From: Lentibacillus persicus
Lineage (GTDB): Bacteria; Bacillota; Bacilli; Bacillales; Amphibacillaceae
DNA: 64,000 nt
Direction: 5' to 3'
NCBI RefSeq assembly: GCF_900112705.1
Contig: NZ_FOMR01000004.1
Coordinates: 62,001 to 126,000 of the forward strand
A program made the translations under genes and the position numbers. This document shows positions 8,263-8,358 of the stretch, piece after piece. Position 1 is the first letter of the stretch. Each line of letters starts with the position of its first letter. The notes under the pieces are model-generated. The model did not search any database. It saw only the letters and a program-made list of their open reading frames with translations, and was not told the DNA's origin.

Positions 8263-8358
8263 TTATCCGCTCGTTACCATGGAAATATATAAAAATATGA
8301 GTGCTGCTGCAAATGCTGTTAAATAGAATAAATCGGTTTTAGTTATCTTTTCAAACAT
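8263..8358 (-). CDS. 31-residue single-helix membrane peptide in the yneA position
   Basis: An ATG at 8358, eight bases after AAGGGG, opens a frame of 31 codons ending at TAA. The product has a charged N-terminus (MFEKITKTD), one hydrophobic segment of about 18 residues ([18 protein letters not shown]) and a VTSG end. The gene occupies exactly the slot of B. subtilis yneA, between lexA and yneB, and sits behind a consensus promoter with SOS boxes. YneA is an SOS-induced cell division inhibitor with one membrane helix plus a LysM domain. Here only the helix exists, and yneB begins 17 bp later, so no LysM domain can follow. Coding status rests on position, ribosome site and hydrophobicity; function is inference. 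Confidence 0.65.

Follow-up and report, generated by a model that had tools for sequence, protein, structure and literature searches.

The systems closest to the locus described here are small single-pass membrane proteins that inhibit cell division under SOS control. In Bacillus subtilis this protein is YneA, which is encoded between lexA and yneB behind LexA boxes and combines an N-terminal helix with an extracellular LysM domain. It has been reported that the YneA helix binds transmembrane helix 7 (TM7) of FtsW, that residues K5, E6, F10, V11 and F14 of YneA are essential, and that changing V204 of FtsW to F abolishes YneA localisation (PMC13396833). According to the same report, the YneA helix on its own still localises and still binds FtsW, but inhibition requires in addition that LysM binds to peptidoglycan, and the view from B. 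subtilis is that the helix only delivers the LysM effector to FtsW. SosA of staphylococci (77 aa) is also encoded beside lexA, SOS-controlled and anchored by a single helix, has no LysM, and is reported to be inactive as the d40 variant without almost all of the extracellular part; ChiZ and DivS of actinobacteria are single-pass SOS division inhibitors that are commonly found beside lexA (PMC6851548). ChiZ has a LysM domain and DivS has none. SidA of Caulobacter, an SOS-induced inner-membrane peptide of 29 aa, acts on FtsW (PMC4211646), and low-confidence AlphaFold 3 models have it on the opposite side of FtsW TM7 (PMC13396833).

A gene with the position of yneA and the size of sidA is present in Lentibacillus persicus, in the 64,000-nucleotide stretch of contig NZ_FOMR01000004.1 (positions 62,001 to 126,000) that was analysed here and is referred to as the window. 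As listed in Table 1, the slot between lexA and yneB contains a 93-bp coding sequence of 31 codons, which we call mini-yneA, and yneB is followed by a DUF896 gene, presumably ynzC-like judging from its position. A TTG at 8433 could serve as an alternative start giving a 56-aa frame, but the conserved part starts at the ATG, with M found at 76 of the 78 loci described below. Searches with the peptide gave no match in Pfam or NCBIfam (E up to 10), nor in PHROGs (E up to 0.01). AlphaFold2, supplied with an alignment of 37 sequences, predicted one helix over residues 7-30 (mean pLDDT 87.7), and the orientation is probably N-in/C-out. The C-terminus lies one residue beyond the modelled helix, hence there is no extracellular segment of the conserved type that SosA needs. 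An extracellular LysM domain is absent as well, since the product has only 31 aa, gives no Pfam match, and its stop codon is separated by 16 nt from the start of yneB. A preliminary description of this locus had already recognised a 31-codon, single-helix gene in the yneA slot with no room for LysM before yneB, and frame, neighbours and helix bear this out, although the distance to yneB given there, 17 bp, should be 16 nt.

Table 1. Position of mini-yneA and surrounding features in the window
Feature	Coordinates	Strand	Remarks
DUF896 gene, after yneB	7286..7558	-	PF05979, E 2.6e-29
yneB (serine-resolvase-like protein)	7605..8246	-	NCBIfam NF049883, E 4.1e-102; start GTG at 8246
mini-yneA (31-aa single-helix peptide gene)	8263..8358	-	ATG at 8358, stop ending at 8263; kept at 78/135 orthologous loci; AlphaFold2 helix 7-30
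LexA box between promoter and mini-yneA	8417..8430		one mismatch
Promoter TTGACA-16-TATAAT, upstream of mini-yneA, yneB and DUF896 gene	8439..8466	-	12/12 consensus bases; TTGACA 8466-8461, 16-nt spacer, TATAAT 8444-8439
LexA box inside promoter spacer	8447..8460		one mismatch to CGAACNNNNGTTCG
LexA box on lexA side	8475..8488		one mismatch
lexA, divergent from mini-yneA	8551..9174	+	TIGR00498, E 8.3e-74

Compared with YneA, the lexA-yneB position, the LexA boxes, the N-terminal helix and a link to FtsW are shared, and a helix motif is shared by way of outgroup proteins. The differences are the LysM and extracellular domain (LysM-type outgroup frames are 92-150 aa long, mini-YneA 27-35 aa) and the conserved residues L20, F22 and Y24 in the outer half of the helix, which are mini-YneA's own. 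With a single helix and about 29 aa mini-YneA has the form of SidA, and its LexA boxes suggest the same SOS control; SidA stems from another phylum and, as is the case for ChiZ and DivS, is likened here by description, not by sequence.

To see how widely this arrangement is kept, YneB was searched in 149 related genomes, of which 138 were positive; genomes G037, G092 and G103 (genome and locus numbers are ours) gave only distant YneB matches and were omitted, which left 135 loci. lexA was divergent at all 135, and the lexA-yneB gap contained mini-YneA at 78 loci, another single-pass protein at 44 (LysM by Pfam in 33; one, the 35-aa entry L127, is doubtful and may be no gene), and no membrane gene at 13. 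Thus, the conserved peptide of this size that the preliminary description had proposed to look for in relatives does exist. Its length ranges from 27 to 35 residues and is 30 or 31 in 74 of 78 cases, and the start is preceded by a Shine-Dalgarno-like motif in 77. D9, F16 and Y24 are invariant, position 12 is occupied by Y in 74 peptides and by F in the remaining 4, and L20 (76), K7 (70), F22 (70) and F11 (68) are nearly so. At 76 of the 78 loci fewer than 100 nt separate the stop codon from yneB, which leaves no space for LysM. In one case (L050) the gap measures 1492 bp, possibly by an insertion, and the peptide still lies 12 bp before yneB.

The control region is conserved as well. The fully consensus promoter with a LexA box in its spacer had been pointed out in the preliminary description, and both were found as stated (Table 1). 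When up to two mismatches are allowed, the LexA-box pattern is no rarity in the 64-kb window (23 occurrences, against an expectation of 18.75), but only four boxes with one mismatch occur in it, three of which fall within the 72 bp spanned by the boxes of Table 1. LexA boxes were present at 78/78 peptide loci, at least two boxes with at most two mismatches in the lexA-yneB gap at 77 (mean after base shuffling 0.04), and a promoter-like pair overlapping a LexA box at 59.

A profile built from the 78 peptides was positive for 137 of the 159 family genomes (36 of 46 genera) when matches with E no higher than 0.01 were accepted at any place in a genome, which is why G168 (E 0.0014) is scored as positive. 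Two of the 22 negative family genomes, G018 and G076, were assigned by elimination, and both have an empty slot. With E up to 0.001, 49 of 397 genomes from the order, in five families, gave a match, as did 8 of 398 genomes from the class; seven of these eight belong to the same family, and the remaining match, in G547 (E 7.3e-4), is marginal and lies outside the Bacillales families. The named records with the peptide (38 loci) include Lentibacillus, Virgibacillus, Oceanobacillus, Ornithinibacillus, Cerasibacillus, Compostibacillus and Aquibacillus. A Bacillales-type peptide is also present in NZ_QWLJ01000003.1 (L209), labelled 'Roseburia sp. 1XD42-34', a species label that is probably wrong.

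Since a YneA reduced to its helix is reported to be inactive in B. subtilis (PMC13396833), one could regard mini-yneA as a decaying, functionless remnant of yneA. However, the peptide occurs in five family-level groups, contains invariant residues, and shows purifying selection, with a pN/pS of 0.24 pooled over 268 close pairs of peptide genes. Identity at codon positions 1, 2 and 3 was 0.62, 0.79 and 0.46, the third position being the most variable. The frame is therefore conserved, and a local truncation of a gene that is full-length in close relatives, which the preliminary description had named as a way to overturn its reading, does not apply either, since none of the 89 loci of the clade described next has a LysM-YneA. 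On the grounds of conservation, selection and clade structure we rejected a remnant as very improbable.

In a tree of LexA plus YneB from the 135 loci, the 78 peptide loci and 11 loci with an empty slot form one clade of 89 with a branch support of 99, and the LysM-type proteins all lie on the other side of that branch. This tree was made with a quick method and is unrooted, so that it gives no direction of change by itself. Its outgroup classes (36 LysM, 8 helix-only) were set by length, and Pfam recognises LysM in 33 of these 44. The conserved mini-YneA motif was then scored by position in the helices of the 44 outgroup slot proteins, in comparison with block-shuffled versions of the same helices. 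The mean z was 1.75 (sem 0.29), with 23 proteins above 1 and 2 below -1, whereas 22 control windows of two FtsW proteins gave a mean z of -0.12 (sem 0.18). The highest scores were those of the helix-only proteins L135 and L125 and, among longer proteins, of L108 (KIQKISFQDISYVAIFVVLIIYLL), L095, L092 and L096; in many more distant YneAs the score was near zero. Because the motif recurs in outgroup YneA-slot helices, and given the clade structure, mini-YneA is most simply a YneA that would have lost LysM at the base of the 89-locus clade. It looks like a homologue of the transmembrane part of YneA rather than an analogue. The term 'minimal analogue' used in the preliminary description thus holds as far as a helix-only occupant of the SOS slot is concerned, and gives way on analogy, as the motif is shared with outgroup YneA helices. 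The residues reported as essential in B. subtilis YneA would be expected in that half of the helix which also carries the mini-YneA motif. Slot proteins of roughly 37-94 aa without a visible LysM were also seen in other families (L111, L125, L130, L133, L135, L090 and L110; a 70-aa frame in L330), thus there may have been more than one loss of LysM.

Taken together, we consider it rather probable that mini-YneA is a LysM-less, SOS-induced YneA that would bind FtsW and block division by its helix alone. This reading draws on the gene itself, the gene order, the promoter and its boxes, conservation, selection, the resemblance to YneA helices, and co-occurrence with FtsW. From these we infer the following course. 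DNA damage would lead to cleavage of LexA and production of mini-YneA, which would insert in the membrane as a single helix. D9, Y12, F16, L20 and Y24 may then dock on the septal peptidoglycan polymerase FtsW, as reported for the YneA helix, and FtsW would be held inactive without any extracellular domain. In the outer half, the invariant Y24 and the near-invariant L20 and F22 are candidates for an added contact. That the helix would suffice is the least secure step, and here the mini-YneA family must differ from B. subtilis YneA because the helix of the latter needs LysM to stop synthesis. The preliminary description had gone further and proposed that YneA itself may act through its helix; in this form the proposal is not supported, since the B. 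subtilis helix is reported to bind FtsW without inhibition, the division block requiring LysM (PMC13396833), and SosA d40 is reported to be inactive (PMC6851548). A precedent at this size is SidA, which acts on FtsW with 29 aa (PMC4211646). In the literature titles and abstract openings that we searched there was no earlier description of a helix-only YneA, so that one may exist elsewhere, and no paper joining yneA, lexA and Oceanobacillus was found.

The significance lies in the existence of a conserved natural YneA that has no effector domain, found across 36 of the 46 genera in one family as well as in four others, and tied to FtsW by co-loss. Either a bare helix can inactivate a SEDS polymerase, in which case FtsW would have an inhibitory site, or the part of the effector is now played elsewhere. 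mini-YneA thus offers a test, provided by nature, of a division block by a helix alone; should the helix suffice, it would point to the site on FtsW at which septal synthesis can be shut down by a small ligand.

The second of these options amounts to a split of the two halves of YneA, in which the mini-YneA helix would bind FtsW and a separate peptidoglycan-binding or extracellular partner would block division. Targeting without inhibition is what has been reported for the B. subtilis YneA helix (PMC13396833), and the strong conservation fits either role, but at 76 of 78 peptide loci there is no room for LysM before yneB, and the 16 LysM matches over the cut-off in the genome of the window are all in frames of at least 209 aa, none of them beside lexA. 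We regard such a division of labour as unlikely. A small LysM gene elsewhere in this genome was considered as a candidate and dropped: no frame below 209 aa exceeded the cut-off, and there was one sub-threshold match in a 119-aa frame.

To compare the distribution of mini-YneA with that of its presumed target, the FtsW encoded next to pycA in the genome of the window was searched in the 149 relatives and the 159 family genomes. FtsW was scored as present by a gap in the best E-values (at most 4.8e-125 versus at least 6.3e-98), a criterion applied within the family only. Of the 159 family genomes, 135 had both peptide and FtsW, 16 neither, 2 only the peptide and 6 only FtsW (Fisher p 3e-15, uncorrected for kinship). 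By genus these numbers were 35, 9, 1 and 1, respectively, with genus g30 scored as having both, although one of its members, G076, has neither (another, G040, has both). One of the 16 genomes with neither, G201, is 80% complete. The presence of mini-YneA thus tracks that of FtsW, the reported target of YneA, and the peptide is nearly always missing where FtsW is missing.

The gene order beside ylaN was inspected in 23 chosen genomes, 22 of which gave a ylaN match. ylaN was followed by pycA with no ftsW between in G076, G036, G035, G094, G098, G143 and G122, among which G076, G036 and family f11 (G098 and G143) have an empty slot. G051, also with an empty slot, contains a broken ftsW remnant covering only FtsW residues 2-71 and 193-368. 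In 11 FtsW-less genomes neither ftsW nor pycA came right after ylaN, and in G037, G074 and G109 ftsW was present beside ylaN. The peptide-only genomes are G035, in which the peptide is intact although the ylaN-pycA interval has no ftsW and no close FtsW was found elsewhere, and G149, without any FtsW-type match. G094 has kept the peptide and encodes an FtsW-like protein (51% identity) at another place. The six FtsW-only genomes all belong to genus g27, which has lost the peptide and kept FtsW. G035 and g27 speak against an FtsW-directed role of the peptide. ftsW has been lost several times in the family, as 16 of 159 genomes gave only distant SEDS matches (e.g., G076, G036, G051 and G035; L292, L295, L298 and L305), so another SEDS protein presumably serves division there, and the loss of FtsW may belong to a broader shift in how these bacteria divide.

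The tree of the 89 clade loci shows four slot losses, all on FtsW-less lineages, which make up 16.7% of the branch length. If losses were random by branch length the chance of this would be approximately 8e-4, a rough null that covers only loci with yneB and leaves out genus g27, which speaks against the association. FtsW requires five changes on this tree, the fifth being G035. Among genomes without yneB, which are not on the tree, g10 and g36 (4 genomes) lack both, and g27 has FtsW without the peptide. A kinship-corrected pair test was not significant (3 supported pairs, on average 2.9 of 3 in the same direction, p 0.25), and with so few pairs significance is out of its reach; adding family f11, with the FtsW of four LysM-type genomes taken as present, gave p 0.125. 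Outside the clade, family f16 (G103 and G147) has no slot gene beside lexA and apparently kept FtsW. At the loci of genus g27 (L316, L318, L321-L323 and L326) and family f16 (L320 and L324) no hydrophobic slot gene was seen beside lexA and FtsW was found, and yneB was absent or only distantly matched in the g27 and f16 genomes tested (G037, G074, G103 and G147).

The association with FtsW also bears on the possibility that mini-YneA is a membrane toxin of the TisB/DinQ type, which would depolarise the membrane and slow growth in general. TisB, too, is small, has a single helix and is under LexA control. The same combination has been reported for DinQ (PMC3567139), but a general toxin does not account for the co-occurrence with FtsW, the resemblance to YneA helices and the yneA gene order, and no Rfam match was found over 8 kb at the gathering threshold, a search that covers known RNA families only. 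We consider a toxin of this kind improbable.

If the peptide docks on FtsW, the interface should be at least altered in this family. In the numbering of the 403-aa FtsW of G130, in which L196, V204 and P206 agree with the B. subtilis report and residues 153, 166 and 211 do not (PMC13396833), 31 of the 32 FtsW sequences from the family retain the TM7 proline that corresponds to P206, which fits docking of this kind. The equivalent of V204 is an alanine, also in 31 of 32; this counts against it and is the ground for expecting an altered interface. On the side of the peptide, the 9-12-16-20-24 spacing had suggested conservation along one face of the helix, but the periodicity was not significant (p 0.10). 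Family FtsWs also appeared shortened after TM7 compared to those of G096, G108 and G130; this was dropped as a co-change with the loss of LysM because short FtsWs also occur in G133 (LysM type) and G109.

The profile also matched outside the yneA slot, and 12 such regions from family genomes (L174-L185) and two IMG/VR viral contigs (L225 and L226) were examined. In 11 of the 12 family regions the frame was open, and in the other, L182, the match is interrupted by a stop; L179 and L181 share an identical peptide and the identical 250 bases before it. The ridge, D or E followed by Y, F, L and an aromatic residue or H, is present in 10 of 12 distinct peptides, the exceptions being Y for F in L184 and K for D in L185. 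Among the neighbours tried, some match families of phage integrase (L177 and L225), anti-repressor (L180), DnaD-like loader (L185) and endonuclease (L184), L179 is near methyltransferase and RecE-like exonuclease families, and the neighbours tried at L175, L176 and L226 belong to phage families of unknown function. L174 adjoins a transposase, L183 an invertase, and the neighbour tried at L178 gave no match and was flagellin-like by eye, thus with such mixed neighbours not all copies are shown to be prophages. With a stricter LexA-box pattern no box was found in the 400 bases preceding or the 200 bases following any of the 12 family copies, and INPHARED (phage) and PLSDB (plasmid) records gave no match.

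The phage-borne relatives suggest that mobile elements use the same FtsW handle. A parallel is Gp11 of the staphylococcal phage phiNM1, a small phage membrane protein that blocks division, although its reported targets are MurG and DivIC (PMC11237401) and it is likened here by description. It is a tentative proposal that the clade would have turned a helix-plus-LysM inhibitor into a self-sufficient 30-residue FtsW inhibitor, versions of which mobile elements would carry as division blockers. The presence of similar peptides in prophage-like regions and viral contigs means that competing peptides exist, and the chromosomal peptide could then be an antagonist or decoy that fills the YneA-type site of FtsW and shields division, for instance from these phage-borne relatives; the helix-only YneA is non-toxic in B. 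subtilis, which agrees with this. However, LexA boxes at 78/78 loci suit a damage checkpoint better, and the clade has no other division inhibitor in the yneA slot, so that we find a protective role hard to favour over a LysM-less YneA that blocks division, and quite unlikely. Taken as a group, the tiny relatives (L174-L185 except L182, together with L225 and L226) lie in prophage-like, transposon-like and viral regions, and the spacing of their conserved residues is nearly the same as in mini-YneA.
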